Notes under the pieces: model-generated
What the model was told of the DNA's origin: nothing
What the model saw: the letters and a program-made list of their open reading frames with translations, nothing else
Databases searched by the model: none
NCBI GenBank assembly: GCA_016887485.1
Contig: CP069394.1
Location: 372,001-436,000 of the forward strand
Source: Chloroflexota bacterium
Lineage (GTDB): Bacteria > Chloroflexota > Anaerolineae > Anaerolineales > Anaerolineaceae
Direction: 5' to 3'
Length of the DNA: 64,000 nt
Shown here: positions 490-19,889 of the stretch, piece after piece
Layout of the letters: each line of letters starts with the position of its first letter
How positions within the stretch are numbered: the stretch's first letter is position 1
Made by a program: the position numbers and the translations under genes

Positions 490-2067
490 TTAATGCGGCA
501 GATGGTAGCTTTTTTGCCAGAGTCTTTGGTATCGAACAACTTCCGCCTGCCAGGTTTCATCGGACCAGCCCAAAGGTTGCTGGATCAGGGCTCTGATATG
601 GTTGATTTCACCCAGGCCACCCTTCGGCAGCAATAAACCCACCCGAACCCGACGCAGGAGCAGGTCATCCAAATGCACCACAGCTTCATTGCTGGCGGCC
701 CAGGCCATTTCGGCCCAGAATTGCGGCATGGGGTCAATGGATTGGAGCTCGTCAGGTAATGCGCTTTCAAAGAAGGGGGTGACATCTTCACCCAGGCGAC
801 CGGCCATCATTTGCCAGGCAGTTTCGCTGGCTTTTGGGGTGGTTTCCGGTTCGGGATGGATGAAACATGGGGCCTGGTGGTCGAATTTTGGCTCTCCGGG
901 TAAGTGATCCCGGCAGAAGTTCAATACATCAGCTGCCATCACGCGGAAGATGGTCAGCTTGCCGCCAGAGACGGTCACCAGGCCATCTTCTTCCCAAACC
1001 TGGTGTGCCCGTGATTCCTTGGAAGGGGTTGGAGCGTTGGTGTTGATCACAGGCCGCAGACCAGCAAAAGTGGAAATTAGGTCAGCATCGGTGACAGTGA
1101 AATCGGGGAAAGCGTATTGTACGGCTTCCATCAGATATTCATATTCCAAAGGGTTAATCCGGGCCTCATCTTCCGTGGTGGGATCATCCAGGTCAGTGGT
1201 GCCAATCATCGTTCGCCCTTCCCAGGGGATGGCAAACAGGGCCCGGTTGTCCCGTGGGTGCAGCATTGTCACGGCGGATTCAATGGGCAGTTTTTCACGA
1301 GAGAAGATCAGGTGGCTGCCACGCAGACGGCGCAGTTTGGGCTCGCCGCTGACCGATTGGCGGATTTCATCCGACCAGGGACCGGTCGCGTTGATGACCA
1401 CATTGCCCCGCAGTTCGCGGGTGGCAGGGGTAAGGGTGCCGCTTTGGTCTTCCACGACCACACCTTCCACCCGGCCGCTTCTGGATTTGCAGAGCCCAGT
1501 TACCTTGGCGTAGTTGAGTGCCAAACCCCCAAAGCGAATCCCGTCCGAGATCACCCGCATGACCAGCTGGCTGTCATCCAGCCGAGAGTCATAATATTCC
1601 ACACCACCGACAAGTGCTTTCTGGTTGATTGCAGGGACGGACTTAACAACTTCTTCCTGTTTGAGGAAGTCATGCTGCCATTTGGGTGCCATTAGGTCAT
1701 AGGCGATCACGCCCAACCGCATCAGGTGGGCTTCCTGTATGTTGTGTTCATAGGCCGGGAAGATGAATGCCAGAGGGTCTACCAAACCATCCGATTCACG
1801 GATCAGGCGTTCACGTTCGCGTACCGATTCCCTAACTACATCGAATTGTCTATTTTTAAGATACCGGATTCCGCCGTGGATCAGTTTGGAGGAACGGCTG
1901 GAAGTGCCAAAAGCGAAATCACGGGCTTCGACCAGGGCAACTTTGAGCCCTTTTTGGGCAGCCATGTTGAAGATACCCGCGCCAGTGATCCCGCCGCCGA
2001 TGACGATTACATCCCAGAGCTGGTCCAATGCCGACCAGGTTTTTTCACGCCATTTTTTATTGAGCAT
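490..2067 (-). CDS. glpD: FAD-dependent glycerol-3-phosphate dehydrogenase (GlpD/GlpA type)
   Basis: A 525-residue protein with the FAD dinucleotide-binding motif GGGITGAG at residues 24-31, followed by the family-typical stretch around FGTSSRSSKLIHGGIRYL and a later NATGPWSDEIR segment. This is the DAO-fold glycerol-3-phosphate dehydrogenase/oxidase family, which oxidises sn-glycerol-3-phosphate to dihydroxyacetone phosphate and passes electrons to the quinone pool at the membrane. Length matches the family. The ATG at 2067 has a GGAGGG ribosome site. It lies 17 bases after the alkyl-DHAP-synthase-like gene and 72 bases before the FGGY kinase, so the operon could both make glycerol-3-phosphate and oxidise it to DHAP, the precursor for ether lipids. 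A role limited to glycerol catabolism is equally possible from this gene alone. Confidence 0.9.
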   Translation of the reverse strand: MLNKKWREKTWSALDQLWDVIVIGGGITGAGIFNMAAQKGLKVALVEARDFAFGTSSRSSKLIHGGIRYLKNRQFDVVRESVRERERLIRESDGLVDPLAFIFPAYEHNIQEAHLMRLGVIAYDLMAPKWQHDFLKQEEVVKSVPAINQKALVGGVEYYDSRLDDSQLVMRVISDGIRFGGLALNYAKVTGLCKSRSGRVEGVVVEDQSGTLTPATRELRGNVVINATGPWSDEIRQSVSGEPKLRRLRGSHLIFSREKLPIESAVTMLHPRDNRALFAIPWEGRTMIGTTDLDDPTTEDEARINPLEYEYLMEAVQYAFPDFTVTDADLISTFAGLRPVINTNAPTPSKESRAHQVWEEDGLVTVSGGKLTIFRVMAADVLNFCRDHLPGEPKFDHQAPCFIHPEPETTPKASETAWQMMAGRLGEDVTPFFESALPDELQSIDPMPQFWAEMAWAASNEAVVHLDDLLLRRVRVGLLLPKGGLGEINHIRALIQQPLGWSDETWQAEVVRYQRLWQKSYHLPH

Positions 2068-2084
2068 AGTCCCTCCTTTTCGTT

Positions 2085-3683
2085 TCAGTCCAGGTCCAGT
2101 AGTTTGCCCCGGTTCATCACTTGATCCGGGTCCACGTCTTTGATGGTTTCCCGAATGAGGTGGATCCCCAACGGGCCTTTTTCCTGCGGTAGGTAGGGTT
2201 TGTGATCCAGGCCCACCCCGTGCTGGTGGGAGATCGTCCCGCCATTGGCGACAATGGCCTCACTGGCTGCGGTCTTCAGGGTCCGCCAGCGAGCGAGGGT
2301 TTCTTCCGGGTCCTGTGAGCGGCGATAGAGATAGGTCACATACATCGAACCGCCGTTGGTGTAAACATGGGAGACATGACTGAAGACGAGGACGATCTCA
2401 TTTTGATCCTCCAAGCCGGTCCGGATGGCTTTGAGGATTTCCTTGCGGCCCTTCTGCAGGCGGTCCCAGGGCAGCGCCGTCTCTAGGGTATCAAGGGCAT
2501 AGCCCAGGTCCCAGAGTGTGTTACGCAGGTAGGGGGATAGGAAGCGTTTCTTGATCCATTCTTTACCCAGATAGAACTTGACCATCAGGCCCTTATTGGC
2601 ACGGACCATATGGGAAAGTTTGATGTCGGCAAGACGATTCTCAGCAGGGTTGCCTGTCAGCCCGTAGATCAGCATACAGCGCTGGTCCCGTTGGCCAACG
2701 AGGTTCAAGCCGGCTTTGGCAACCTTAATCAGTTTTTCTGCACCCGAAAGCTGGAAGGTGGTCTCAGTCTCGTAAGGGTCACTCAGCCGCAGCATTGAGA
2801 GGGGCAGTTCCGCCTGGGCGATCTGCCGCATGGCTTTGACGCCCGTTTCAAAATCCGGGAAGAAAGCGGAATAAAAGTGTTCCTGCTGGGGGAGGCGGCG
2901 GATACGGACTGTGGCCTGGGTGAGGATACCCAGCCGGGCTTCTGAACCCATCGCGAGGTGACGCAGATCGGGACCGGCCGCACTCTTGGGAACGTGGGGG
3001 AAGTCTAGCGGACCACTGGGGGTCTCCATGTGGCCGGTGACGAACAGGGGTTCGATCCGACCGTAATGGATGGATTGTTGCCCAACAGAGCGAGTGACGA
3101 CCCAGCCGCCCAGGGTGGAGTATTCCCATGATTGGGGGAAGTGGCCCAGGACATAGCCGTGGGTCCCGAGTTGTTTTTCCAGGTCTGGGCCGCTGACACC
3201 GGCAGCAAAGGTGGCCTCATGGTTGATCTCGTTGAGGTTCAGCAGCTGGTTCATCTTCGCCATATCCACGCTCAGGGTGGGGAGGCCTTCACCGGGAGGG
3301 GTCAGGTGCCCGACGACGCTTGAACCGCCGCCATAAGGCACCAGGTTGATCTTGTGCTGTTTGGCAAAGGAGATCAGCTCTCGCACCTCGGAATCTGATG
3401 TGGGATAGGCCACGCCATCGGGAAAGGTGTCCACCAGGCCATCGCACATATCGATCCAATCATTGAGGGATTGGCCGCGTGAATGGCTAAGGCGCTCTTC
3501 GGCGTCTGTGGTGATCAGGGGATTATCTGGCAATTGGGAAGCGGGCACTTTTTGGATGAGGGATTCGATGGTGGCGTTTTGCAACTTGAGGGGCTGCCCC
3601 ACGGCGCCGGTAAGGTACTGCTTGGCTGGTTCTGGTACGGGGTAGTCGGTTTCGATATTACCCCAACCCTGGATCCTTTTCAT
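2085..3683 (-). CDS. FAD-linked oxidase resembling alkyl-dihydroxyacetonephosphate synthase
   Basis: A 532-residue flavoprotein of the FAD-binding PCMH (VAO/GlcD) superfamily. The FAD pyrophosphate-binding segment VPYGGGSSVVGH is near residues 116-126. Several landmarks match eukaryotic AGPS rather than lactate or glycolate oxidases: an N-terminal GWGN, an HSRGQSLNDW stretch near residue 67, EYSTLGGWVVTR, AAGPDLRHLAMGSEA, and a C-terminal SHQHGVG at 485-491 where AGPS has its active-site triple histidine. AGPS exchanges the acyl chain of acyl-DHAP for a fatty alcohol, making the first ether-lipid intermediate. The gene follows the FadR-like regulator by 24 bases and has a GGAGG site. The middle histidine of the AGPS HHH is glutamine here, so activity is not certain; a D-lactate-dehydrogenase-like role is the alternative. 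Confidence 0.72.
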   Translation of the reverse strand: MKRIQGWGNIETDYPVPEPAKQYLTGAVGQPLKLQNATIESLIQKVPASQLPDNPLITTDAEERLSHSRGQSLNDWIDMCDGLVDTFPDGVAYPTSDSEVRELISFAKQHKINLVPYGGGSSVVGHLTPPGEGLPTLSVDMAKMNQLLNLNEINHEATFAAGVSGPDLEKQLGTHGYVLGHFPQSWEYSTLGGWVVTRSVGQQSIHYGRIEPLFVTGHMETPSGPLDFPHVPKSAAGPDLRHLAMGSEARLGILTQATVRIRRLPQQEHFYSAFFPDFETGVKAMRQIAQAELPLSMLRLSDPYETETTFQLSGAEKLIKVAKAGLNLVGQRDQRCMLIYGLTGNPAENRLADIKLSHMVRANKGLMVKFYLGKEWIKKRFLSPYLRNTLWDLGYALDTLETALPWDRLQKGRKEILKAIRTGLEDQNEIVLVFSHVSHVYTNGGSMYVTYLYRRSQDPEETLARWRTLKTAASEAIVANGGTISHQHGVGLDHKPYLPQEKGPLGIHLIRETIKDVDPDQVMNRGKLLDLD

Positions 3684-5770: not shown

Positions 5771-6601
5771 TTAGGGGATATTCCAATATTTCAGTTCATC
5801 CACCTTTACTGTGAACCCCGGGTTGTTGACGAAGGCGATGATGAAACCGGTATAGCCTTCATTCGAGAGGGTTGAGTCGCTGGCTGTGCCCACCTCTTCG
5901 CCGTCAATGTAGAAGGTGAAGCTGGAGCCATCCATCAAAACGCCCACCCGATGAGGATTATTGGTGCCATCACTCAGTTGGGTGGCAGTTTGATAACCTT
6001 TGATCTGCATGATATTTACGCCGGGGGCCATTCGGAAGACGCCCCATTGACCATCACAGGTGATGCCCAGGAAATAGAACTGCTGACCGTCAGAGCTGGC
6101 CCGGAATGCCAAACCGAAGTGATCTGCCCCTGAGCAGCTAGACATCTGGATGGTTGTTTCGATATAGGCGTTCTTGAGTTTGGGGCTGGAAACATACCAA
6201 GAATGCCAGTTGGCATTGGCTTTAGCTGTCAGGGTGAGGTAGCCGCCAGAGGTCTGGAAGGTCGCTTGCGTGTAATCAAAGTCCCAGGCGCTGGTAGAAC
6301 CACTGAAATCCTGTGTCCAGGCAGGGGAGCCATAGGTCACTGTCGGGTCGCTGGGGCTCTGGGTTTCGGTGGGCGTCACAGTAACTGTTGGTGTGAATTC
6401 GGTGGGGGCTTCGGTTTCTTCCGTCACTGGTTCGGGGGTCTCACTCGGGGCTACTTCTTCCGTTGCGCCTTCGGTCAGCATGCGTGCCACCTGGGTGCCG
6501 ACGATATCAACTGTTGGTTCAGCGCTTTGGCCGGGGAAGTTACAACCGGACAGGATGAGTATGGTTATCAGAACAAAACTGAACAAACTTATCTTCTTCA
6601 T
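5771..6601 (-). CDS. Lipoprotein with a LamG-like/jelly-roll C-terminal domain
   Basis: A 276-residue predicted lipoprotein: a type II signal peptide with lipobox LSGC near residue 20, a Thr/Glu/Pro linker to about residue 95, then a domain of about 180 residues rich in beta-strand-like segments (WTQDFSGSTSAWDFD, YLTLTAKANANWHSWY, HFGLAFRASSDGQQFYFLGI, FTFYIDGEEVGTA). Such domains are usually concanavalin A-like sandwiches that bind carbohydrate or other ligands at the cell surface; no catalytic motif is visible. It has a strong AGGAGG ribosome site. The gene at 8033-8923 is a paralogue with the same layout (CSGADHFGL and CSGTDHYGL, ITCDGQW and ITCDGKY, both ending in YW-D/N-[IL]P). The binding target is unknown. 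Confidence 0.75.
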   Translation of the reverse strand: MKKISLFSFVLITILILSGCNFPGQSAEPTVDIVGTQVARMLTEGATEEVAPSETPEPVTEETEAPTEFTPTVTVTPTETQSPSDPTVTYGSPAWTQDFSGSTSAWDFDYTQATFQTSGGYLTLTAKANANWHSWYVSSPKLKNAYIETTIQMSSCSGADHFGLAFRASSDGQQFYFLGITCDGQWGVFRMAPGVNIMQIKGYQTATQLSDGTNNPHRVGVLMDGSSFTFYIDGEEVGTASDSTLSNEGYTGFIIAFVNNPGFTVKVDELKYWNIP

Positions 6602-6782
6602 AGGGTCCTCCTGGAGGATTAATGATTTTTGAAGTTAATTATAGTGATTTCATGATTCCAACGCAACTGACAGTATGGAAAGTGGTTAATAGTATAGACA
6701 TTGTTGGTATTATCATTTTTCGGGAATGGCAACCTCATGTATAATGAGCGGTGTTATTCAATAAATATTTAAGGACGAAATT

Positions 6783-7961
6783 ATGGATCTATTTGAAAAA
6801 TGCTTTTCCTTTTCGACTGTGAAGGATGCTAAAAAAACTGGAATTTACCCGTATTTCATTCCACTCGATGAGAATGAAGGGACTGAGGTCATTTTTAATG
6901 ACCAACGCGTGATCATGTGTGGCTCGAACAACTACTTGGGACTCACCACGCATCCCAAGGTTCGCCAAGCAGGCATTGATGCCATCCAGCGTTATGGCAC
7001 CAGCTGCACCGGATCCCGTTTCCTCAATGGGAACATGTCACTGCACGAAAACCTCGAAGCTGAACTGGCTGAATGGGTGGGGAAGGAAGCAGCCCTGGTC
7101 TTTTCCACCGGGATGCAGGTTAACCTGGGAACGATCAGCGCTGTGGTCGGCCGCGGTGATTTTGTGATTTTGGATAAGGAAGACCATGCCAGCATCGTGG
7201 ATGGGGCCTGGTTGAGCAGTGGCAAGATCGAACGTTATCGCCATAATGACATTGACCATCTTGAACGGGTGATGGCAAGCCTGCCTGAAGATCGAGGAAA
7301 ACTGCTGGTCGTGGATGGCCTTTTTAGCATGGAAGGTGATATCGCTCCTTTGCCGGAAATCATCCCGCTTTGTGAGAAATATGGCGTCCGCCTGATGGTG
7401 GATGATGCCCATGCGATGGGCGTTTTGGGTGGGGGCCGCGGCACTGCGGCGCATTTCGGTATGACCGAAGGTGTGGACCTGATTATGTCCACATTCAGCA
7501 AGTCATTTGCTTCTTTGGGCGGGTTCATTGCTGGTGAAGCGGATGTGGTGGATTACATCAAACATAAAGCCCGCAGCCTGATCTTCAGCGCCAGTATCCC
7601 GGCAGCCAATGCCGCAGCCGCTCTGGCCGCGTTGGAAGTTATGAAGGAAGAACCGGAGCGTATTGAACGTGTCAACCAGATTGGCGCTTATATGCGTGAG
7701 GAATATAAGAAGCTTGGGTTTGATACCGGCGATTCAGTTACCCCGGTTATCCCAATCATCATTGGTGACGATGCTCTGACCTTTATGACCTGGAAACGGC
7801 TCTTTGAAGAAGGCGTCTTCGTGAATCCGGTGATCTCACCGGCCGTCTCACAAGGCCGCCAGTTATTGCGTACCAGCTATATGGCTACCCACACCGATGA
7901 ACAATTGGACCAGGTGTTGTCAACTTTTGAGAAGGTTGGCAAGGAACTGGGTCTGATCTAA
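6783..7961 (+). CDS. Alpha-oxoamine synthase, serine palmitoyltransferase-like
   Basis: A 392-residue PLP enzyme of the alpha-oxoamine synthase family (BioF, KBL, HemA, SPT), which condenses an amino acid with an acyl-CoA and releases CO2. The PLP lysine is K240 in STFSKSFASLGG; H135 in DHAS and D208/H210 in VDDAHAMG fit the cofactor pocket. Several stretches recall bacterial serine palmitoyltransferase more than BioF: FSTGMQVNLG, the VILDxxxHASIxDG pattern, FSMEGDIAP, and FVNPVISPAV near the C-terminus. It stands alone between two lipoprotein genes, with no bio or thr genes nearby. A sphingolipid or related long-chain-base role is plausible. Substrate choice in this family cannot be settled by eye, so BioF or KBL activity remains possible. 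AAGGACG precedes the ATG. Confidence 0.78.
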   Translation: MDLFEKCFSFSTVKDAKKTGIYPYFIPLDENEGTEVIFNDQRVIMCGSNNYLGLTTHPKVRQAGIDAIQRYGTSCTGSRFLNGNMSLHENLEAELAEWVGKEAALVFSTGMQVNLGTISAVVGRGDFVILDKEDHASIVDGAWLSSGKIERYRHNDIDHLERVMASLPEDRGKLLVVDGLFSMEGDIAPLPEIIPLCEKYGVRLMVDDAHAMGVLGGGRGTAAHFGMTEGVDLIMSTFSKSFASLGGFIAGEADVVDYIKHKARSLIFSASIPAANAAAALAALEVMKEEPERIERVNQIGAYMREEYKKLGFDTGDSVTPVIPIIIGDDALTFMTWKRLFEEGVFVNPVISPAVSQGRQLLRTSYMATHTDEQLDQVLSTFEKVGKELGLI

Positions 7962-7983
7962 ACCGATATCTATAGTGGAAATC

Positions 7984-8014
7984 AAAAGACCGGAGGTTTC
8001 GCCTCCGGTCTTTT
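7984..8014. terminator. Bidirectional terminator between convergent genes
   Basis: A perfect 13-bp stem (AAAAGACCGGAGG, 7984-7996, with 8002-8014) and a TTTCG loop. U-runs are formed on both strands, serving the oxoamine synthase (+) and the lipoprotein at 8033 (-). Confidence 0.9.
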
Positions 8015-8032
8015 CTGTTGTCTGGTGATTAA

Positions 8033-8923
8033 TTAGGGCAGGTCCCAATAGCGGATCTGATCCAGCCACATGGTGAAGTCCACGCCGCTGTCTCCGCCAA
8101 CAAAGACGCCGAAGATCCCTTCGGTGAAGGTGTCATCTGTGACCTCGTTGACCTTGCTGCCGTTGATATAGAAGGAGAGTGTGTCGCCATCGGCCATCAC
8201 GCCCAGGGTATTGACTTCATTCGCTCCTTTGATGATCTTGTCGCTGGCGGTCCAGCCGATCAGCACGGTCATCTTCGGGTCATCCCAGAGGCGCAGGCTG
8301 TATTTGCCGTCACAGGTGATGCCGAACAGGTAACCCTGGCTGGCGCCGGAGGTCTTGGGTGTGCGGAACATCAGCCCGTAATGGTCGGTGCCGGAGCAGG
8401 CAGGGGTTTGAAATTTACCTTCGAGATAGAAGTTGTCCGGTGCAGGCCAGGAGAGCCGCCAGCCGTCCAAATCCGTGATGGCTGTCAGTTTCATGTAGCC
8501 GCCATTGAATTTGATTTCAGTGAAGGCATCGTTGTCGGTCAGCCAGTTATTGCCGTTATCCAAATTGTCCACCCAATTTGGGGTGCCTAGGGAGGCGGCG
8601 GGGTCGGTGTCTGACATTGTGGGGGTTGGCGCGAGGGTAGCTGTGACGGTTGGTGTGGGCGTTTCCGTAGCTTCGACGATTTCTTCAGTCGGCTCTTCAG
8701 TTACAGTTTCTTCAGTAGCCTCTTCTGTCACGGTTATGTCCTCAGTGCTCTCCGCAGTGGGGGAGACCAGCACTTCGACGGGTGTGCCTGTGAGGATTTT
8801 TGCGATCTCGGTTGCCATGCTCTCGTCCGTCGGCTCTTCAGCAGCCTGATTGATGGGGAGGTTACATCCCGCCAGGAGCAGGGCGATTATTACAATTGAA
8901 ATGAAAGTCAGTCTCTTCTTCAT
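8033..8923 (-). CDS. Lipoprotein with a LamG-like C-terminal domain, paralogue of 5771-6601
   Basis: A 296-residue predicted lipoprotein. The start is placed at the ATG at 8923, four codons inside the longest frame, because the Lys-Arg signal peptide begins there and GGATGG precedes it. The lipobox is LAGC, followed by a long Thr/Glu/Pro linker (to about residue 120) and a beta-rich domain matching the paralogue on the other side of the oxoamine synthase gene. Shared landmarks are CSGTDHYGLMFR, GITCDGKYSLR, LSFYINGSKV and a C-terminal IRYWDLP. It is probably anchored to the outer face of the membrane with its domain held away from it. No catalytic residues are recognisable. Confidence 0.75.
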   Translation of the reverse strand: MKKRLTFISIVIIALLLAGCNLPINQAAEEPTDESMATEIAKILTGTPVEVLVSPTAESTEDITVTEEATEETVTEEPTEEIVEATETPTPTVTATLAPTPTMSDTDPAASLGTPNWVDNLDNGNNWLTDNDAFTEIKFNGGYMKLTAITDLDGWRLSWPAPDNFYLEGKFQTPACSGTDHYGLMFRTPKTSGASQGYLFGITCDGKYSLRLWDDPKMTVLIGWTASDKIIKGANEVNTLGVMADGDTLSFYINGSKVNEVTDDTFTEGIFGVFVGGDSGVDFTMWLDQIRYWDLP

Positions 8924-9093
8924 ATTGCCATCCATTCAGTAGATATTTTCGACCTCAAATAAAATGACGTGCAGTTATGGAAAGAAGTTCCCCATAACCT
9001 GATTCTAGCACGAGGCCAGCTTCTTGTCATCTTAGGCGTGCAAGAATCTGGCCATTCTAGGGTCAACATCAGAGGATAGTGTCAAAATGGGCG

Positions 9094-9102
9094 TGGTATA
9101 AT
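9094..9102 (+). promoter_or_regulatory. Extended -10 promoter of the Mrr-like gene
   Basis: The sequence TGGTATAAT is an extended -10 (TGN-TATAAT) about 70 bases before the start at 9170. No good -35 hexamer is seen at the usual distance, which is normal for extended -10 promoters. Confidence 0.4.
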
Positions 9103-9169
9103 CCCAAATGAGTCAGGGCTTGCCAAATTTGGCAGCCAATTTTCTTTTTAAATCAAAGGAATGCTCCTG

Positions 9170-9877
9170 ATGGAAGGTTTCATCGCAATTTTCACTATAC
9201 TTTATGCTTTCTGGCCCCTGATCATCTTTTTTGGTTTTCGGCCCTTCTTTCAACGCGGAGAATTCTTTCCAGATCGGATAAGACGAGCATCCAATCGGGT
9301 TTTCTTCGGATGGATCGTCTGGGGAGCATTTTGGGGATATCTGCTTGCCAATGACACCCAGCCATTTTCGCTGATTCCGGAGCCATTGAACACCGTTCTC
9401 TTTATCTCCCTGGGTGTGATCTCAGGTGGGGTGTCGATTGGCTTCTGGTGGCATCACCACAACGAGCATCGAATCAGCCTGGCGGATGCCCAAACGCTGG
9501 AAGACCTGATGGCGCTTTCACCGGATAATTTTGAAGCATTGATTGCCAAATTATTTGAAGCCTATGGGCATCAGACAGCCGTCATGGGTGGGAATGGCGA
9601 TCATGGCGTGGATGTGGTGGTCATGACGAGCGAGGGGGAAAAATGGATTGTGCAGTGCAAGCGATACAGCGGCTCAGTGGGAGAGCCGATTGTGCGGGAT
9701 CTCTATGGCACCCTCTTGCATGAGGATGCCCAGAAAGCCTATTTAATTACTACTGGCGGATTGACCCGTCAGGCTGTTGCATGGGCCGAGGGCAAGCCGA
9801 TCGTCCTTTATGATGGCGATGGGCTTGTCCGCCTGATCCGCAGGACGCAATCCGCCAGGAATAGAAGCGCAATTTAA
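9170..9877 (+). CDS. Membrane-anchored Mrr-like restriction endonuclease-fold protein
   Basis: A 235-residue protein. The ATG at 9170 is preferred over 9161 because AAAGGA ends nine bases before it. Two or three hydrophobic segments fill the first ~100 residues (IAIFTILYAFWPLIIFF; VFFGWIVWGAFWGYLL; VLFISLGVISGGVSIGF). The C-terminal half is an Mrr_cat-type nuclease domain: FEALIAKLFEAYG (helix with the conserved Glu), GDHGVDVVV (catalytic Asp) and the WIVQCKRY strand (Q-x-K). The family cuts DNA, often modified DNA, and some members act in defence or repair. Here the domain would face the cytoplasm from the membrane. No modification gene or other defence gene is adjacent, so the role is unknown. 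Confidence 0.75.
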   Translation: MEGFIAIFTILYAFWPLIIFFGFRPFFQRGEFFPDRIRRASNRVFFGWIVWGAFWGYLLANDTQPFSLIPEPLNTVLFISLGVISGGVSIGFWWHHHNEHRISLADAQTLEDLMALSPDNFEALIAKLFEAYGHQTAVMGGNGDHGVDVVVMTSEGEKWIVQCKRYSGSVGEPIVRDLYGTLLHEDAQKAYLITTGGLTRQAVAWAEGKPIVLYDGDGLVRLIRRTQSARNRSAI

Positions 9878-9878
9878 T

Positions 9879-10949
9879 TTAGGCCAGAGCGTCAGCGATC
9901 TGTTGAACCAGGCGTTGAACCTGGATTCCATGTTCGAGAGTGGGCACGAAGCTGATGTCCGGGGCGCCGCCCAGGAAGAGGTAGTGGTTGTGCACCATTG
10001 CGCGCAGCCAGCCGGCGGGGCTGTAACCGGCGTAGAACTTCGACGCGGGTGAGTAATTACCGTAAACATCGTGCCGCTGCCAGCCTTCTTCCGGCAGGTA
10101 GCTCATGTAGATATCAGGCTGAGCGGTGTCAAAGACGATCGACCCAATGGTGCCGTAGATTTCAACTTTCAATTGATCGCCTGTTCCAGCCGAGATGCGG
10201 CTGGCGGTCATGGTACCGATCGCACCAGTCTGGGTTTCCTGAAGCATGGCGGTTGTGCAGAGGTCGCTTTTTTCTGGGAAGCCGGTCAGGTTGGCGTTGG
10301 TGGTGAATGCGTCCTGAACAGTCAGGGTATCACCCAGGAAGGCTGTGAGCAGGCTGAGGATGTGAGAGCCCAAGTCCACAGTGGCACCATTGACCGGGAT
10401 GGGCAAAAGGCGGCTGGTGCGCTTGGCCCGATAGTCTGCGCTGAGGTAGCTGCTGTGCAGGTATTCCGTTCGGAAATGAACCGGATCACCAAATTTGCCG
10501 GTCTGCCAGTGGGCCAGGGCTTGACGCACGGGGGATTTCTGCAGGAATTGGAACCCCATCATTACGAATTTACCGTGATCGGTTTTGCTGATCTCTTCCA
10601 GCTGGGCCAATTCTTCGCGGGAAGAGGCAACGGGTTTTTCTACGTAAATCCGTTTGATAGTTGGGCTTTTGATCGCTTCGATTAATTGGGGGGCATGGGC
10701 GGGGTTTGCGCCCAGAATATACACCGCATCCAGGTCATCCCGTTCCCAAACGGCTTCCGGCGCGCACGATTCAGCGAAACCATAGCGGTTGGCGAAAGCC
10801 TCTCTGTGCGCCGGTGTGGGCGATGCCGCCACAACCCGCTCGATCTTGGGCATCCCCTCGTAATAATGTTGAACGGCGTCCAATGCATATGTATGCGCTT
10901 TGGCAATGCTGCCCGTTCCCAGGAAACCAATTCGTAATGTCTTTTCCAT
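9879..10949 (-). CDS. Gfo/Idh/MocA-family oxidoreductase
   Basis: A 356-residue NAD(P)-dependent sugar oxidoreductase family protein. The N-terminal Rossmann motif GFLGTGSIAKAH is near residues 8-19, and the signature EKP sits in RIYVEKPVASS near residue 100. The C-terminal alpha/beta domain contains VDLGSHILSLLTAFLG, where the conserved Asp and His of this family are found. It oxidises or reduces a sugar, inositol or related ketone; the substrate cannot be read from the sequence. GGAGG precedes the ATG. It ends one base from the stop of the convergent Mrr-like gene and has no sugar transport or isomerase genes near it. Confidence 0.85.
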   Translation of the reverse strand: MEKTLRIGFLGTGSIAKAHTYALDAVQHYYEGMPKIERVVAASPTPAHREAFANRYGFAESCAPEAVWERDDLDAVYILGANPAHAPQLIEAIKSPTIKRIYVEKPVASSREELAQLEEISKTDHGKFVMMGFQFLQKSPVRQALAHWQTGKFGDPVHFRTEYLHSSYLSADYRAKRTSRLLPIPVNGATVDLGSHILSLLTAFLGDTLTVQDAFTTNANLTGFPEKSDLCTTAMLQETQTGAIGTMTASRISAGTGDQLKVEIYGTIGSIVFDTAQPDIYMSYLPEEGWQRHDVYGNYSPASKFYAGYSPAGWLRAMVHNHYLFLGGAPDISFVPTLEHGIQVQRLVQQIADALA

Positions 10950-13584: not shown

Positions 13585-14346
13585 TCACTCGCCAACCCAG
13601 CCAATGGCATAGTGGGTTGGGATGATCATAACCCGTTCCCCGTTGTTTCGGGCATCAACATCAAATAATTCAAATTGGTCCAAATCGGCTCTTGTGACCA
13701 TGTCTTTGAGGTCCGAACGAAGGACCTGCCATTCCAGAGAATCTTCTGCTATCAGGTCCTGTTCCAGCTCCTCATCGAGTGTCTCGGTGTAGGTGTTGCG
13801 AAGTCCAACTTGCTGGTACAGGTCATTAAGTTTGGATCCCATTTCAACATCAGCCCCTTGCCGCACCAGTGATTCATTCTGGATCAGTCCTAGCTCATCC
13901 AGCGGTGGGGGATAGTCGATCCGGCTGGTGTAATCCGGTTCTGCCAGGGCGATCACTGCGCCGCCGGGATGAGTCACACGTTTCATCTCAGCCAGCACCT
14001 GAACGGGATCCGCTACCCAAAGCAGCAGGTAATGACAATAGACAGTGTCAAAGCTGTCATCAGCAAAGGGCAGCTGGTGTCCGTCCGCTTGGGTGAGCTG
14101 GTATACGGGGTTTTCATTATGGGCAAAACAAAGACTGGGGTGGTATATATCCACCCCAGTCAGGGTAAAGTCAAATTCTTCTGTAATGGCACCCATCACC
14201 GCACCGGTTCCGCAGCCAACTTCTAAAACCTTACAGCCGGGTTTCAGGCCAGCCTGTTCAAAGAGGTGCCGGCGGATTTCAGTTGTCCAGCCGGCTTGCT
14301 GCTGAAAACGGGAGTGCCAATCGGCCAGAGTGAGTTCCGGGTTCAT
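13585..14346 (-). CDS. Class I SAM-dependent methyltransferase in the radical SAM operon
   Basis: A 253-residue methyltransferase with SAM motif I VLEVGCGTG near residues 40-48, the acidic loop GVDIYHP, and the post-I/II segment DSFDTVYCHYLLLW followed by AEMKRVTHPGGAVIALAEP, which fits the UbiE/Methyltransf_11 group. It transfers a methyl group to an unknown acceptor in the cytoplasm. Its start codon overlaps the stop of the preceding gene (ATGA at 14346-14343), so it is translationally coupled to the cysteine-less radical SAM-like protein. It is the last gene of the operon from 19073. Its position suggests a role in maturing the same product, but a general metabolic methyltransferase is not excluded. 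Confidence 0.85.
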   Translation of the reverse strand: MNPELTLADWHSRFQQQAGWTTEIRRHLFEQAGLKPGCKVLEVGCGTGAVMGAITEEFDFTLTGVDIYHPSLCFAHNENPVYQLTQADGHQLPFADDSFDTVYCHYLLLWVADPVQVLAEMKRVTHPGGAVIALAEPDYTSRIDYPPPLDELGLIQNESLVRQGADVEMGSKLNDLYQQVGLRNTYTETLDEELEQDLIAEDSLEWQVLRSDLKDMVTRADLDQFELFDVDARNNGERVMIIPTHYAIGWVGE

Positions 14347-15497
14347 TTAGACCAGATCTGCTCCCATTCATCGGTCAGCAGGTTGCCCATGATCTGATCC
14401 GCCAACCCCTGAGCGGGGAGGACGTCGCCATCGGGTTCCACATAGAGCCAGGCCTTGCCAGCGCCTTCCACGAAGGCTTCGTCGCCTTCTTTTTCAAGCT
14501 CCAGCGAAACGGGATTATTGCTGGAATAAGGCACGGGCAGGTCCCAGACAAGGTCCAGCTGCTGCACTGCGGCGTAGTCTCGCAGGCTTTGCAGTTTCTC
14601 AGCCATTTCCGGGTCGGCCACGCTGAGTGAGAGGGCATTTGCGCCCATTTCCGCCAGCCGTTTGATCGTGGGCTTGAGGTCAGAGCCGTTACGGAGGGTA
14701 AGATGCACGGTTGTGAAGAGGTCATCCGGGAGCACTGTCTCCAGGACTTTCCAGTCACGATCATCTTCCGGGTCGAAGATCATCATGAAGTGATCCAGGC
14801 CGCTGGTCAGCAGGGTGTCTAGGTAGGCTTTATCACCCAGCCTGAGCCCATCGGATAAGAGCCCGGTCACGAGGCCCAGGTCTTCCGCTTCCTGAAGCAG
14901 TTCAGGGAGGTCTTCCCGCAGAGTCGGTTCACCACCAGTGTAGAGGATGTGAGGGATGCCAACCTGATAGGCTTTATTGAGAACGGTTTTCCATTCTTTG
15001 GTGGTCAGTTCCCGATCCACACGGTCCACGGGGGCATCGGTTTCGTGGCTGTCCCTATCCACCCGGTAGGTCAGGGCGCAATCCAGCCGGTAAGGGGCGG
15101 AGATGTCCGCTTTATAGGGTTCCTGGCGTTCAATGCCCAGATAGGTCACCGGGTCCAGATCAGGGGTGTGAATCAGGGTCTGGATTTGATCCTGAAAGGC
15201 CTCAAAGTCCAGATTGACCTGTTCCGGGTTCACCTGGTACCGCTTGGCGACGATTGATGCGATTTCCGCTGCCGGAGTGCCTTTGATGATGTGATAGGCA
15301 TATTCCACAGCGCTCTGGTTGAGATGCAGGACGGTGGAAGCGTTGATAACGAGGATCCCGCTGCCATCTCCTTCAATCCGGAGGTGCAGCCGGTATTGGT
15401 CTTCCTGATCCGCCGGTGACAGGTAACTGTACATGCCGGTTGGGAGGGGTTGTTTGTTTGAGAAAAATTGCTTGATAGATTGAATGAGATTGGCCAT
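14343..15497 (-). CDS. Radical SAM-like protein without cluster cysteines (pseudoenzyme) with PqqD-like domain
   Basis: A 384-residue paralogue of the radical SAM enzyme upstream. The start at 15497 has GGAG eight bases away and leaves 11 bases after the previous stop; the longer frame would run into that gene. Residues ~20-110 match the PqqD-like N-terminus of the paralogue (YRLHLRIEGDGSGILVIN, VLHLNQSA). The TIM-barrel part keeps PYRLD-ALTYR, TGGEPTL (187-193) and the LxxGLDHxxxxxDP region, but the CxxxCxxC motif is replaced by VDRDSHET (146-153). The SPASM-like end stops after MGNLLTDEWEQIWSK and has none of the seven cysteines of the paralogue. Only one cysteine (C140) remains. The frame is intact and coupled to both neighbours, so this is a maintained non-catalytic protein, perhaps a scaffold or peptide-binding partner, rather than a pseudogene. 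Confidence 0.82.
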   Translation of the reverse strand: MANLIQSIKQFFSNKQPLPTGMYSYLSPADQEDQYRLHLRIEGDGSGILVINASTVLHLNQSAVEYAYHIIKGTPAAEIASIVAKRYQVNPEQVNLDFEAFQDQIQTLIHTPDLDPVTYLGIERQEPYKADISAPYRLDCALTYRVDRDSHETDAPVDRVDRELTTKEWKTVLNKAYQVGIPHILYTGGEPTLREDLPELLQEAEDLGLVTGLLSDGLRLGDKAYLDTLLTSGLDHFMMIFDPEDDRDWKVLETVLPDDLFTTVHLTLRNGSDLKPTIKRLAEMGANALSLSVADPEMAEKLQSLRDYAAVQQLDLVWDLPVPYSSNNPVSLELEKEGDEAFVEGAGKAWLYVEPDGDVLPAQGLADQIMGNLLTDEWEQIWSK

Positions 15498-15508
15498 ATC
15501 CGCTCCGT

Positions 15509-16885
15509 TTATTTTGAAAATATGGGATTCTGGATGGGATGGATCGTCTGGTGTTCCCGGGCCAGTGGACAGCCTCCGCCGCATTCGGGCAGGAACTCAC
15601 AGGTCAGGCAGCCCTCAGGCACGTCGCTCCGATTGCGGAGTGAGAGCGCCAGGGGGTGTTCCCAGATCGATTTCCAGGGGTCCTGGAGCATATTGCCCAG
15701 GGCTTGATAATAGGATTGGCAGGGGATGACATCCCCGTTGGGTTCAATACACATGTTATAAAGTGCTGCTGTACAACCCTTCACGCCCAAATCCAATTGT
15801 AAGGGGTTGAAATGGCAGTATTGGGTGGGGGTGTACCAGATCAGACGCTGTCCCTGAGCTTCTGTGAGCTCACGGGCGATTTCCAACAAAGGGGGCAGGT
15901 TTTCTTCGGCCAGGCCGGTATCGACCTCTTCGCCTTTGCCGGAATAGATCAGGGCATTCAGACCAACGGTTGGCACACCAAGCTCGCCCAGGAAATGCAG
16001 AGTCTCTTTAACATAGAGGCTGTTGTGAGTCAGCAGGGTGGTGTTGGTCATGATATAGAGGGGTGACGCGATCACATTGCGCACCCCGGCAACGGTCTGT
16101 TCCCAGGCGCCTTTCGAGGCTACCATCAGGTCATGGATGGCCGGGTCATGCGATTCGAGGGTGATCTGCACATGATCCAGTCCCGCGTCCACCAGGGATT
16201 GCACAAAAGCCGGATCTGCCAGCTTGCGGCCATTGGTGTTCAGGCCGGTGATCACACCCAGCGATTCGGCATAGGCAATCAGATCCGTCAGGTGGGGGTA
16301 GAGGGTGGGTTCGCCACCCGTGAAGACGATATGGGGAATGCGTTGATCCCAGACCCGGTCGATGACAGCTTTCCATTCCTCAAGGCTAAGCTCGGGATAC
16401 TGCCGTGAGCGGGCATTGTAGCAATGGCTGCAGTTGTTGTTACAGCGATAGGTGATGGCCAGGTCCATCCGGTAAGGCGCACTGGGTTTCGCACTGAAGG
16501 GCGCCATGGTTTCTAGGTCCAGTTCACAGACCGGACAAGCGCCATTGGGCCTCAGGAGTTCTTCAACTTGATTGATGAAGTCCATGAAGTCATTTTGGGC
16601 ATCTTTGGCCGAGACACTGAATTCCCGCTGCAAGGCTTTGGAGGCTGTCTCGGGGGTTAAGCCTTCGAGGTGAAAATATGTCATTGCCGCCGCAGAGGGG
16701 TTGAGATGCACAACCCGGTTGGCATTAACGATCAACAGCCCGCGCCCGTCCGGATCAATCCGAAGGTGAATGCGGGTTTTCTCGTCCTTGCCCTCACGCC
16801 GGTAATGATACAGCCCGGTTTTGGGCAGGGGCGTGCGTTGAAAGATCTTGGTCAATTTTCCAGTAAACGAGTTTGATGGTTTCAT
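15509..16885 (-). CDS. Radical SAM/SPASM enzyme with N-terminal PqqD-like domain
   Basis: A 458-residue enzyme. Residues ~38-112 resemble a PqqD/RRE peptide-recognition domain (IHLRIDPDGRGLLIVN, VVHLNPSAAAM). The radical SAM core has CNNNCSHC at 148-155 for the 4Fe-4S cluster and TGGEPTL at 189-195. The C-terminus is a SPASM domain with C371, C379, C389, C426, C429, C435 and C439, spaced as in enzymes that bind auxiliary clusters. Members such as PqqE, AlbA and anSMEs modify peptides or proteins by radical chemistry, often at cysteine. The gene follows the DUF2207-like protein with the Cys-Ala tail by 57 bases, which makes that tail the obvious candidate substrate. The ATG at 16885 has no ribosome site except AGGAG inside the hairpin at 16898-16924. 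Confidence 0.9.
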   Translation of the reverse strand: MKPSNSFTGKLTKIFQRTPLPKTGLYHYRREGKDEKTRIHLRIDPDGRGLLIVNANRVVHLNPSAAAMTYFHLEGLTPETASKALQREFSVSAKDAQNDFMDFINQVEELLRPNGACPVCELDLETMAPFSAKPSAPYRMDLAITYRCNNNCSHCYNARSRQYPELSLEEWKAVIDRVWDQRIPHIVFTGGEPTLYPHLTDLIAYAESLGVITGLNTNGRKLADPAFVQSLVDAGLDHVQITLESHDPAIHDLMVASKGAWEQTVAGVRNVIASPLYIMTNTTLLTHNSLYVKETLHFLGELGVPTVGLNALIYSGKGEEVDTGLAEENLPPLLEIARELTEAQGQRLIWYTPTQYCHFNPLQLDLGVKGCTAALYNMCIEPNGDVIPCQSYYQALGNMLQDPWKSIWEHPLALSLRNRSDVPEGCLTCEFLPECGGGCPLAREHQTIHPIQNPIFSK

Positions 16886-16897
16886 TAGGTATGAGAG

Positions 16898-16924
16898 GCT
16901 CCTGGCGCAATGTGCGCCAGGAGC
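16898..16924 (-). promoter_or_regulatory. Intercistronic hairpin holding the radical SAM ribosome site
   Basis: A perfect 12-bp stem (GCTCCTGGCGCA, 16898-16909, with 16913-16924) and a 3-base loop lie between the DUF2207-like gene and the radical SAM gene. No U-run follows, so it is not a clear terminator. Read on the minus strand, its 3' arm contains AGGAG, the only Shine-Dalgarno-like sequence before the ATG at 16885. The hairpin could lower translation of the enzyme relative to the upstream protein or protect the message end. Confidence 0.6.
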
Positions 16925-16942
16925 GATATAGTTGGGTTATTG

Positions 16943-18700
16943 TTACCGGCCGCCGCCAGCACAAGCGCAGGCACAACCGGCACAGGCGCAGGCACAGGCA
17001 CAACCACCGCTGTGACCACCGCCGCCGCCTCGGAACCCGCCGCTGCCGGACTTGCTGGTAACGGGGATAGGGTTGGTGCGGGTGGTGACACTGCTGGTAA
17101 AGGAGGTCAGGTTGCCGACCACGCCGGCCGCCATGCCCGTCACACCATTGACCACACCAGCCGCGAAGTCTGAACCGGGGATGTGAGGCAATGAGGGCGA
17201 GCTGCTGCGTGAGCCGCCGGTGGACACCTTGCCAACCGAGGGTGTTGAGCCGCTCACCCGGCCAATATTGCGCCGATAGGTGGGTGAATAGCGGGGCCAC
17301 CAGATGGGTACGTAGACCGGGCCACCCACGAATGTTCGGCGGGTGCGTTCGGCATAGTCGTCGTCCAGCATCGTCCATTCCAGGGTCTGATCGTAGTACT
17401 CGCTCTTGACTTCAGGAGTCTGGGCTTCTTCCACCATCTTCCAGGCCCGGCGCATGATGTCTTCATAGTAGGCTATGGTTTCTTTGCGGCTGAAGCCTTT
17501 CATCTTGTTCGAAACGCTTTTTACCAGGTCCACCATCATCTTTTGTAAGGAGGTTCGCCGTTTCGCATCGGGCTCTTTGAAGGCATTTAGGAAATCAATC
17601 TCATATTGATGCAGTCCAGCCGGCAGCGGATCCGTGACCGTCAGTTTCAGGGGGTCGGATTGCTCCACTGTGGCGGCGTCCTTCTTAATCGTGCCAAAGA
17701 GGATCATGGTCATGATCTTATCCATCGGCTGTTCCATCAGGATGGCCGATTCGACTGCGGTGAGCCCGCGTTTAATGCCGTGTCCCTCAATTTTCATCTT
17801 GGGCGGCAGATATTTCATCTTGCGTTTCTTCGCGCCGACGGTGCCCTGATAGATACTCCAGCCGAAGATGGCCGTGAAGAGCAAGCCAAAGCCAAAGCAG
17901 CAGATATTGCTGCCAAAGGCATCAAAGATGAAGGGAATGATCCCGGATGAGCCACCTGGCGAGGAACTGCTGCCGCTGGGAATCGACTTCACAATGGTCT
18001 CAGCGGGGATATATTGATCCGGGAAGGCCGTGCCAAAGATATATTGTGAATGCAAGTCGGCGTTATCGGTATACCAGGAGTAGTACATCCGATCTTCTGC
18101 CGCAGTCCGTCCGATATCATCGGGTGTATCGGCACCTGGCCAATTCGCGGGGTAGTAATACACACCCTCATCGTCACCCACGCCCGGGGGAAGGATCAGA
18201 GTCGCCCGGTAGGCTGTTCCGCTGCTCTTGTCATAGGCGGAATCAAACCAGGTGGGGCTGAATTGGAAATTCGCATAGTTTTCACGGTCGCCATTGTCAT
18301 AGGGCGTGATGACATTCTCAACACCTGAAATCCAGGCAGTCACGGTACCGGTTTGTCCCGGGGGGATGGCTTTATCATCGAGATTCAGGGCGAAGCCATT
18401 GGTGACATAGGGCGAACTTTCCACTTTGGTGATCGCCTGACCATCAATTTCACCTTGAATGTTCTTAAGACTGTACGAGGAGGATGGCATGCCGATGTCA
18501 ACATACTCAATCGGTGCCCCCGTAGGTAGGTTCTGGAATTCAAATAAATACCAGATGGATAAGGTGCCATCCTCTTCAATATATGCTTCCACTTCCATTG
18601 CGGTGACTTTGAATGCGTAGTCCTGCGCCGAAACGGTCGCGGGCAGCGTAAAGACTCCCAATAGAACGACAATGAGAAGGATGAACTTCAGTTTCTTCAT
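16943..18700 (-). CDS. DUF2207-like membrane protein ending in a Cys-Ala repeat tail
   Basis: A 585-residue protein with a signal peptide (residues 1-25), an extracytoplasmic beta-rich DUF2207-like domain (~27-240, with GTLSIWYLFEFQNL and PPGQTGTVTAWISG), one membrane helix (~255-285), a basic stop (KKRKMK) and a cytoplasmic region containing GLTAVESAILMEQPMDKIMTMILFG, typical of the family. The last ~35 residues are Gly-rich and end in alternating Cys and Ala: cysteines at 567, 569, 571, 573, 576, 578 and 580, then GGGR. DUF2207 proteins commonly have glycine-rich tails, but here the tail is a cysteine repeat and the next gene is a radical SAM/SPASM enzyme, so post-translational modification of the tail is inferred. 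The zinc-ribbon gene ends four bases upstream; no Shine-Dalgarno of its own is obvious, suggesting coupling. Confidence 0.8.
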   Translation of the reverse strand: MKKLKFILLIVVLLGVFTLPATVSAQDYAFKVTAMEVEAYIEEDGTLSIWYLFEFQNLPTGAPIEYVDIGMPSSSYSLKNIQGEIDGQAITKVESSPYVTNGFALNLDDKAIPPGQTGTVTAWISGVENVITPYDNGDRENYANFQFSPTWFDSAYDKSSGTAYRATLILPPGVGDDEGVYYYPANWPGADTPDDIGRTAAEDRMYYSWYTDNADLHSQYIFGTAFPDQYIPAETIVKSIPSGSSSSPGGSSGIIPFIFDAFGSNICCFGFGLLFTAIFGWSIYQGTVGAKKRKMKYLPPKMKIEGHGIKRGLTAVESAILMEQPMDKIMTMILFGTIKKDAATVEQSDPLKLTVTDPLPAGLHQYEIDFLNAFKEPDAKRRTSLQKMMVDLVKSVSNKMKGFSRKETIAYYEDIMRRAWKMVEEAQTPEVKSEYYDQTLEWTMLDDDYAERTRRTFVGGPVYVPIWWPRYSPTYRRNIGRVSGSTPSVGKVSTGGSRSSSPSLPHIPGSDFAAGVVNGVTGMAAGVVGNLTSFTSSVTTRTNPIPVTSKSGSGGFRGGGGGHSGGCACACACAGCACACAGGGR

Positions 18701-18704
18701 TATT

Positions 18705-19073
18705 TCACCACTTTGGTTCTTCAGTCAGTTGGTAAGTAGTACCACAACTTGGACACTCGACCACCGGCGCACCAGCGACCATTTTGATGTCCTCGGCACT
18801 GAGAGGTGAGCCGCATGATTTACATTTGATCGTATCCATGTTTACATCACCCGGCAGATCAACCTGCAGATTTACAACCTGGTCACCAGCTTTTTGAGGC
18901 GGGGACAGCTTGGTACCAACAAAGATCAGCACGAATCCAATAACCATTCCGATCAGGCCGATAAATATCCAGCCAGGGGAACCTTCCGCGCTGAATGCAC
19001 CCAGGATGAACAGAAATCCGAAGATGATGAAGACAGCAGCCGTTATGAAAGCAATGATTCTTCCTGCACGCAT
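18705..19073 (-). CDS. Two-helix membrane protein with C-terminal zinc ribbon
   Basis: A 122-residue protein with two hydrophobic helices (about 7-27 and 35-53) and a C-terminal zinc ribbon: C84-x2-C87 and C107-x2-C110. GGAGG lies before the ATG at 19073. It is the first gene of the operon that continues through the Cys-tail membrane protein, the two radical SAM-like proteins and the methyltransferase; the next gene starts four bases after its stop. The ribbon should face the cytoplasm, where it could bind a partner or metal. The family is not recognised. Confidence 0.7.
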   Translation of the reverse strand: MRAGRIIAFITAAVFIIFGFLFILGAFSAEGSPGWIFIGLIGMVIGFVLIFVGTKLSPPQKAGDQVVNLQVDLPGDVNMDTIKCKSCGSPLSAEDIKMVAGAPVVECPSCGTTYQLTEEPKW

Positions 19074-19256: not shown

Positions 19257-19889
19257 ATGGCAGAAGTAATTGTCCCAGACATTGTAATCAGCCGGTTACC
19301 TTGGTATCTCCAGACTCTCAACCAGTTAGCACGACAGGGGATGCATACCGTTTCGTCAAAAATGCTGGCTGAACGGCTTGGTACGACTGCAGCCCAAATC
19401 CGTAAAGATCTGTCTTATTTTGGGGGATTTGGCAAACAAGGGACGGGCTATTCGATTTATTATCTGATCGAGCAACTTCAAAAGATCCTCAACCTTGACC
19501 GGGTTTGGCAGGTTGTGGTGGTCGGCGCAGGTGACCTGGGCCGGGCACTTACCCGCTATCAGGGCTTTGCCAGCCGCGGGATTGAGATTGGCCTGCTTTT
19601 TGATGTGGACCCAAAGGTGATTGGGACCCCCGTCGGTTCAGTGGTTGTTGAAGATGTGGCGGTTATGGAAGAGAAGATCCGGGAAAAGAATATAAAAATT
19701 GCCATTCTGACTGTACCTGCCCAAGCTGCCCAACAGACAGCAGATAAATTAGTCGCAGCCGGGGTTAAATCCATTCTGAATTATGCTCCGATCACGTTGA
19801 TCACCCCGGAATCAGTTCATGTGCAGCATATTGACCCTGTGCTCCACTTGCAGCGGATGATGTATTATCTGGGGGATTCCAAGCGCTAA
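19257..19889 (+). CDS. rex: Redox-sensing transcriptional repressor Rex
   Basis: A 210-residue protein, the usual Rex length. The N-terminal winged helix ends in the family signature TAAQIRKDLSYFGGFGKQG (near residues 44-62), and the Rossmann NAD(H)-binding motif GAGDLG is at 90-95. The C-terminal NYAPITL and HIDPVLHLQRMMYYL segments, including the domain-swapped dimer helix, are also typical. Rex represses fermentation and respiration genes and leaves DNA when NADH rises, which fits an anaerobic lifestyle. It is transcribed away from the radical SAM operon, and its stop overlaps the stop of the convergent membrane protein gene by four bases. Confidence 0.95.
   Translation: MAEVIVPDIVISRLPWYLQTLNQLARQGMHTVSSKMLAERLGTTAAQIRKDLSYFGGFGKQGTGYSIYYLIEQLQKILNLDRVWQVVVVGAGDLGRALTRYQGFASRGIEIGLLFDVDPKVIGTPVGSVVVEDVAVMEEKIREKNIKIAILTVPAQAAQQTADKLVAAGVKSILNYAPITLITPESVHVQHIDPVLHLQRMMYYLGDSKR

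Follow-up and report, generated by a model that had tools for sequence, protein, structure and literature searches.

Candidate in-place modification of a Cys-Ala-tailed membrane protein by a radical SAM/SPASM enzyme in Anaerolineae

RRE-containing radical S-adenosylmethionine (SAM)/SPASM enzymes have mostly been described as producing small peptides. In the thuricin CD system two radical SAM enzymes act in one complex, in which the radical SAM activity of one partner alone is strictly essential (PMC12093266). Cys-tailed TIGR04222 membrane proteins have been proposed as substrates of MNIO enzymes (Antoine et al. 2025, PMC12452194), and that paper counts 490 of 1372 TIGR04222 genomes without MNIO genes. 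Here we analyse an operon in a 64,000-nucleotide stretch (the window) of the Anaerolineae contig CP069394.1, in which five minus-strand genes (19073-13585) encode a small zinc-ribbon-like membrane protein (ZR), a membrane protein ending in a Cys-Ala tail (the tail protein), a radical SAM/SPASM enzyme (RS1), its paralogue RS2 and a methyltransferase. The enzyme class is known and the substrate type has so far only been proposed, for another enzyme; what is new is their pairing, with two tail types. We estimate a probability of roughly 70% that RS1 is the enzyme that modifies the cysteines of the tail in place, within the cell, in a putative reaction that perhaps yields thioethers.

The present locus resembles the TIGR04222/MNIO pairs in that a membrane protein with a low-complexity Cys-rich C-terminal tail is encoded near a peptide-modifying metalloenzyme. 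It differs from them in that the enzyme is a radical SAM/SPASM protein, the tail is predicted to be cytosolic and not periplasmic, the tails are strictly ordered motifs and co-occurrence is near complete. With SkfB, SuiB and TrnC/TrnD, RS1 shares an N-terminal winged helix, radical SAM and SPASM parts and the fold, and the RS1/RS2 pair recalls TrnC/TrnD as paired enzymes of which one partner's radical chemistry is dispensable. Here, however, the tail on a membrane protein of 585 residues would serve as substrate instead of a short precursor peptide, and whereas TrnC and TrnD are both active enzymes, RS2 has lost the radical SAM cluster motif. RS1 also resembles the PqqD/PqqE system in combining a PqqD-like domain with a PqqE-like enzyme, but reaches 111 bits against the PqqE equivalog cut-off of 381. 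Unlike in a classical pathway for ribosomally synthesized and post-translationally modified peptides, the candidate precursor is a membrane protein and not a short peptide with a leader; neither a release protease nor an exporter was found among the five operon genes, the wider neighbourhoods not having been screened for them. A radical SAM version of Cys-tailed membrane-protein modification was not found in the searchable literature, which leaves out most subscription journals. The view of the initial annotation that no such system had been described holds there for the gene set, but in-place modification of a Cys tail has already been proposed for MNIO enzymes (PMC12452194).

Judged by its sequence, RS1 carries features of RRE-containing radical SAM/SPASM peptide maturases. 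The Pfam Radical_SAM and SPASM domains of the window enzyme both score above their cut-offs (SPASM 33.1 bits, cut-off 21.5). The cluster motif CxxxCxxC is present in 71 of 72 open reading frames (ORFs) of the window's type (RS1-A), the exception being L103 as called, and is invariant in 32 aligned sequences of RS1-A and of a sister type, RS1-B, as are the SPASM cysteines C357, C371, C389, C426, C429, C435 and C439. The structural model of RS1 (predicted local distance difference test, pLDDT, 85.6; predicted template modelling score, pTM, 0.86) contains a strand-strand-helix pattern at residues 24-111, the PqqD-like RRE region, and its best matches among solved structures are the peptide maturases SkfB (E 2.2e-17) and SuiB, both of which have RRE domains. 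By sequence it is nearest to PqqE and SkfB in the PDB, with PqqE 6c8v as the best match (E 1.9e-34), and in an RS1-B protein (L187) the PqqD match lies above the cut-off (30.8 bits, cut-off 23.4). A Cys-containing substrate candidate is co-encoded with RS1, both in the loci of relatives and in the family table described below.

Relatives of the locus were found by six peptide patterns, one of them derived from the tail. The locus set comprises 80 of 226 relatives, taken from named genomes, with 38 loci at the full 17 kb length; a tail-protein ORF was obtained in 79, which form the base of the locus counts. The tail protein has nine cysteines, seven of which lie in the tail (567, 569, 571, 573, 576, 578 and 580) and two (267 and 268) in the membrane segment. 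In 78 of the 79 ORFs the protein ends in (CA)n-X-(CA)3-GGGR, with the variants 4-G-3 (63), 5-G-3 (13), 4-S-3 (one) and 3-G-3 (one), while the sole ORF without this end (L106) runs into a stretch of N. Mean entropy of the last 19 residues in a 32-sequence alignment is 0.11 bits, whereas the ectodomain has 1.63, the helical domain 1.27, the linker 1.54 and signal peptide and membrane helix about 2.1 bits. No other stretch of 19 residues in the protein varies so little. At the DNA level all 76 of 76 tails, picked by the exact protein motif, differ from each other, with 1.36 bits at third codon positions versus 0.05 and 0 at the first two. Because the protein motif is near-invariant while all DNA tails differ, selection on the tail acts at the protein level and not on the DNA. 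Upstream of the tail F534, T539, T542, N543, P544 and P546 are nearly invariant in the 32 sequences, and the motif FTxxVTxxTNPxP is a possible recognition segment.

A distant A locus (L177) encodes two tandem tail proteins with differing bodies, both with Cys-Ala tails (6301-10053), and between these and RS1 a kinase-domain protein (1892-3340, Pkinase 153.6 bits). Two tail-pattern sites each are present in G174, G187, G219, G259 and G048. G263 has a second match to the tail-protein ectodomain alone (residues 27-234, 50% identity), which fits the pattern poorly and lies within an 878 aa frame (L287:1442-4078) with a kinase-like start, judged by sight, and no Cys tail.

Co-occurrence was scored in 298 genomes of the class Anaerolineae, many of them drafts. 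Because one of the six patterns behind the locus set came from the tail, the co-occurrence rests on a search with the tail-protein body as query, tail excluded; RS1 matches were taken at E 1e-40 or better and split by identity and score into RS1-A (at least 43% identity) and RS1-B (33 to 36%). RS1 matches are found in 77 genomes, 43 RS1-A and 34 RS1-B, with both in G276. The body was matched in 44 genomes, comprising 39 RS1-A genomes and five weak matches (G017, G022, G082, G106 and G134) that are B proteins. Tail A is present in 39 genomes, all 39 with RS1-A, while RS1-A is alone in 4 and neither is found in 255. The pairing of tail and radical SAM enzyme proposed in the initial annotation is borne out here, as the tail-A protein was found in none of the 255 class genomes without RS1-A. 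A two-block DNA pattern for the tail, CACA-x-CACA, gives 41 genomes, namely the 39 with tail A plus G193 and G257, where the sites run antisense to a longer ORF; it replaced an earlier short pattern, dropped as too loose with matches in 155 of the 298 genomes. Fisher values for co-occurrence (1e-44 and 6e-41) ignore kinship, and the family table is the better guide: across 12 family-by-system cases in 11 mixed families no genome has the tail without the enzyme, and two (G128 and G024) have the enzyme without a detected tail.

RS1 is encoded in 73 of the 79 relatives' loci, and in 64 of these 73 the tail gene and the RS1 match are at most 220 bp apart. In G661, G663 and G664, whose tail locus is without RS1, an RS1 of 41-45% identity lies on another contig, and in G100, G173 and G012 tail A and RS1 are both present though unlinked. 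Of the expectation that the two co-occur and stay adjacent, co-occurrence is supported, while adjacency breaks down in some genomes that nevertheless hold both. G192 (L221) has an RS2-like frame with stops, RS1 and the tail protein not being found there, and may hold a relic of a lost system.

RS1-B, a remote homologue of RS1, is found in 34 of the 298 class genomes. In 28 of the 34 loci a membrane protein is encoded upstream that ends in ...[SG]RF or a near variant and carries a (CHSA)n-like tail with about 13 Cys; five of the six other loci stop at a contig edge, and in G059 tail and enzyme lie on separate contigs. The pattern CHSACHSAC is present in 32 of the 298 genomes, 32 of 32 being among the RS1-B genomes. 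The B body is homologous to that of A (hhalign 99.9%, E 2e-31, 393 columns) and scores 31.0 bits against DUF2207 (cut-off 24.4) and 38.3 bits against TIGR04222, under the cut-off of 43. The window tail protein has no significant Pfam or NCBIfam match, TIGR04222 and DUF2207 included (nothing on the Pfam model PF09972, cut-off 24.4); its first description as DUF2207-like fails for the protein itself and survives as a distant body homology by way of B. In the L187 genome, the end of a DUF2207_C protein is Gly-rich and holds no Cys.

Tail type tracks the RS1 clade, (CA)n with RS1-A and (CHSA)n with RS1-B. In a tree of 63 sequences the 34 RS1-B are set apart with a support of 100/100, with 26 RS1-A and 3 RS2 on the other side. 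A profile of A and B run on 400 genomes across the phylum matched 30 at E 1e-80 or better; the one match outside the class, G307, carries A as well as B, with each RS1 close to the tail of its type. As a control, a TIGR04222 search of 100 class genomes gave 23 proteins in 20 genomes, none above the curated cut-off. All 15 TIGR04222-like proteins from the 12 genomes that have neither RS1-A nor RS1-B are Cys-free in the last 60 residues read (13 Gly-rich tails, one off the contig, one otherwise), which agrees with the early expectation that tail cysteines are kept only with the enzyme. In seven of the eight RS1-B genomes of this search the protein ends in the CHSA tail, and in one the protein is truncated.

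A-type ZR, RS2 and methyltransferase genes were not found in the fetched B loci, whole genomes not having been searched for them. A zinc-ribbon-like gene of about 163 aa, below Pfam cut-offs, follows RS1-B in 19 of 29 B loci and has no detectable homology to the A gene. In 20 of 29 loci RS1-B is followed by the gene of a roughly 390 aa protein whose coiled-coil-type matches fall below the cut-off, and upstream of the B tail genes there are often two genes on the same strand, of about 370 and 270 aa (L184-L217).

Hydropathy averages of the tail protein point to a signal peptide and to a single membrane helix near 255-285, which is followed by KKRK. In the model (mean pLDDT 76.8, pTM 0.44) the beta-sandwich ectodomain is predicted with confidence; there is a helix at 269-296 and a helical domain, and the tail is disordered. 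Given the KKRK after the membrane helix and the positive-inside rule, the tail would be cytosolic and hence reachable by a cytosolic, oxygen-sensitive enzyme. The membrane-anchored product suggested at the outset would keep its anchor, but with the tail facing inward. A fold search gave partial ectodomain matches alone, to M1 aminopeptidases and ribophorin (template modelling score 0.2-0.25); the ectodomain model (residues 30-230) is weakly like the N-terminal beta-sandwich of these proteins.

RS2 scores above the Radical_SAM cut-off (33.9 bits, cut-off 29.5) and has no CxxxCxxC, a motif seen in just one ORF among 67 RS2 relatives, while TGGEPT-type and RRE-like regions are retained in an aligned sample. 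By analogy with TrnC/TrnD we propose RS2 as a putative non-catalytic partner of RS1. As RS2 was not found in 12 of the 79 A loci, nor in the fetched B loci, the unit is RS1 with the tail protein and not the RS1/RS2 pair. Dependence on the pair was rejected on these grounds. The methyltransferase is encoded in 49 of the 79 loci, and in 32 of the 41 that extend at least 6 kb after RS1; together with RS2 it looks like an accessory. A ZR homologue is present in 77 of the 79 loci and in 13 of 13 loci of a distant A branch (L171-L183). The zinc-ribbon matches of ZR all fall below Pfam cut-offs. The other gene identities given in the initial annotation stand: five same-strand genes with short gaps or overlaps, seven tail cysteines alternating with alanine, a radical SAM/SPASM enzyme with a PqqD-like part, a paralogue without cluster cysteines and a methyltransferase (Methyltransf_11). 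In some distant A loci (L177, L218) there is a second accessory in which the radical SAM motif is lost and a SPASM-type end is kept.

The proposed mechanism starts from RS1 as an enzyme whose sequence offers the radical SAM cluster motif, the SPASM cysteines and an RRE-type winged helix, and which the genome comparisons show to be present or absent together with the tail, each RS1 clade with its own tail type. The signal peptide would insert the tail protein with the ectodomain outward and, from the predicted topology, the tail in the cytosol within reach of RS1. The RRE of RS1 would then bind the segment before the tail, with the cluster-less RS2 assisting in system A. Thioether links may be formed from Cys; in A they might connect the two Cys-Ala blocks, with the chain folding back at the central Gly. 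This reaction is the least certain of these steps. More speculatively, no release would be needed, and the modified tail might stay at the membrane, metal- or redox-active, together with the zinc-ribbon protein. A wider reading, which we hold tentatively and at slightly less than even odds, is that of an RRE-guided radical SAM system for a working single-pass receptor-like membrane protein, in which one scaffold bears at least two tail types, (CA)n and (CHSA)n, that are each matched by a separate clade of the enzyme, and where covalent links in the cytosolic tail would provide a permanent metal- or redox-responsive element coupled to the extracellular domain. In many Chloroflexota known only as uncultured, and in a few cultured ones, RS1 seems to act for a resident membrane protein, and the two rigidly conserved tail sequences lend themselves to clean substrate tests. 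Among the loci of relatives, L047, L035 and L059 belong to Levilinea saccharolytica KIBI-1, Ornatilinea apprima P3M-1 and Bellilinea caldifistulae GOMI-1. Should the tails prove to be modified, peptide-maturation chemistry would extend to ordinary cell-envelope proteins; an unrelated enzyme would then parallel the pairing proposed for MNIO and TIGR04222, and a set of membrane proteins that lack annotation would gain a role.

Several points weigh against tail modification by RS1. The evidence consists of gene sequences and predicted models. Operon partners co-occur for many reasons, and since tail type changes along with body type, RS1 might act on a different part of the protein or on a molecule that escaped notice. 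RS1-A is without a detected tail in G005, G006, G128 and G157, drafts of 70 to 1110 contigs, as is RS1-B in G024 and G225, drafts that are 79 and 82% complete, and no complete RS1-A was found for L052, which has a partial hit and, in the locus, a run of N, nor for L056 and L060, where the contigs end. The PqqD/RRE match of the window RS1 (22.5 bits) is 0.9 bits under the Pfam cut-off of 23.4, and the best NCBIfam scores of the enzyme include the haem-pathway proteins NirJ2 and AhbD beside PqqE, all far below cut-offs. The TIGR04222 model does not recognise A bodies, so that the control is direct for B and by homology for A. Finally, the Cys/His-rich tails, above all those of B, resemble metal ligands, which would not have to be altered covalently.

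This resemblance, seen in the CxCxC and CHSACHSAC repeats, is the starting point for an unmodified, metallothionein-like tail that binds metal or an iron-sulphur cluster, with RS1 acting elsewhere in the pathway, on a tetrapyrrole, another cofactor or the tail-protein body. The sub-cut-off scores to NirJ2 and AhbD and the zinc-ribbon-like genes that accompany both A and B, themselves below cut-offs and not detectably homologous, would fit this explanation. We regard it as unlikely, since RS1 has an RRE-type N-terminus and peptide maturases as its best structural matches, related proteins in genomes without RS1 have no Cys ends, and a plain metal site would presumably not need a private radical SAM enzyme. 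Less probable still is that RS1 targets another part of the tail protein or an unrecognised small peptide, with the Cys tail as a docking or follower segment: conservation also extends to the FTxxVTxxTNPxP motif and the helical domain, and small ORFs were not exhaustively searched, but the least variable stretch is the tail itself, it is rich in the residue on which such enzymes often act, and the short distance between tail gene and RS1 leaves little space for a further gene. That another enzyme such as an MNIO modifies the tail, with RS1 ancillary, is very improbable. This has been proposed for related membrane proteins (PMC12452194) and the window's own genome has two places above the PF05114 cut-off, but this candidate was set aside, as no MNIO is among the five operon genes and a PF05114 match is absent in two of three tail-bearing genomes tested (G027 and G213, single contigs). 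The repetitive tail DNA, built of TGYGCN units, might also be a functionless low-complexity repeat, a notion with next to no credit and ruled out as an artefact by the differing DNA tails, the variation in third codon positions and the protein motif kept in 78 of 79 relatives.

Table 1. Features of the operon in the window.
Feature	Coordinates	Strand	Remarks
ZR, a small membrane protein whose C-terminus resembles a zinc ribbon (CKSCG...CPSCGTTYQLTEEPKW)	18705..19073	-	122 aa; membrane helices assigned by eye alone
Tail protein: signal peptide, beta-sandwich ectodomain, one membrane helix, helical domain, linker, Cys-Ala tail	16943..18700	-	585 aa
Cys-Ala tail, residues 567-585, CACACACAGCACACAGGGR, proposed substrate	16946..17002	-	0.11 bits mean entropy; 78/79 relatives
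Motif FTxxVTxxTNPxP, residues 534-546, upstream of Gly-rich linker and tail	17063..17101	-	32 sequences
RS1: N-terminal winged helix (PqqD/RRE-like), radical SAM core C148/C152/C155, SPASM; proposed tail-modifying enzyme	15509..16885	-	458 aa
RS2: RS1 paralogue, RRE-like region and TGGEPT kept, cluster motif lost; proposed non-catalytic partner	14343..15584	-	413 aa; 67/79 loci
Methyltransferase: class I SAM-dependent (Methyltransf_11); optional system A accessory	13585..14346	-	253 aa; 49/79 loci

In gene order the spacing is 4 nt, 57 nt, a 76-nt overlap (from the first ATG) and a 4-nt overlap, and a tRNA-Pro gene lies directly downstream on the same strand. The divergent gene at 19257-19889 (plus strand) encodes what we take, by sight, to be a Rex-like redox-sensing repressor. 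A conserved role for the flanking genes was considered and rejected, as the Rex-like gene, the gene at 19886, the MreB-like gene and the oxidoreductase at 9879 are shared only with the near relative L031 among the 80 loci. The two PF05114 places in the window's genome (L319 and L320) both lie outside the operon, L320 about 9 kb before the window.

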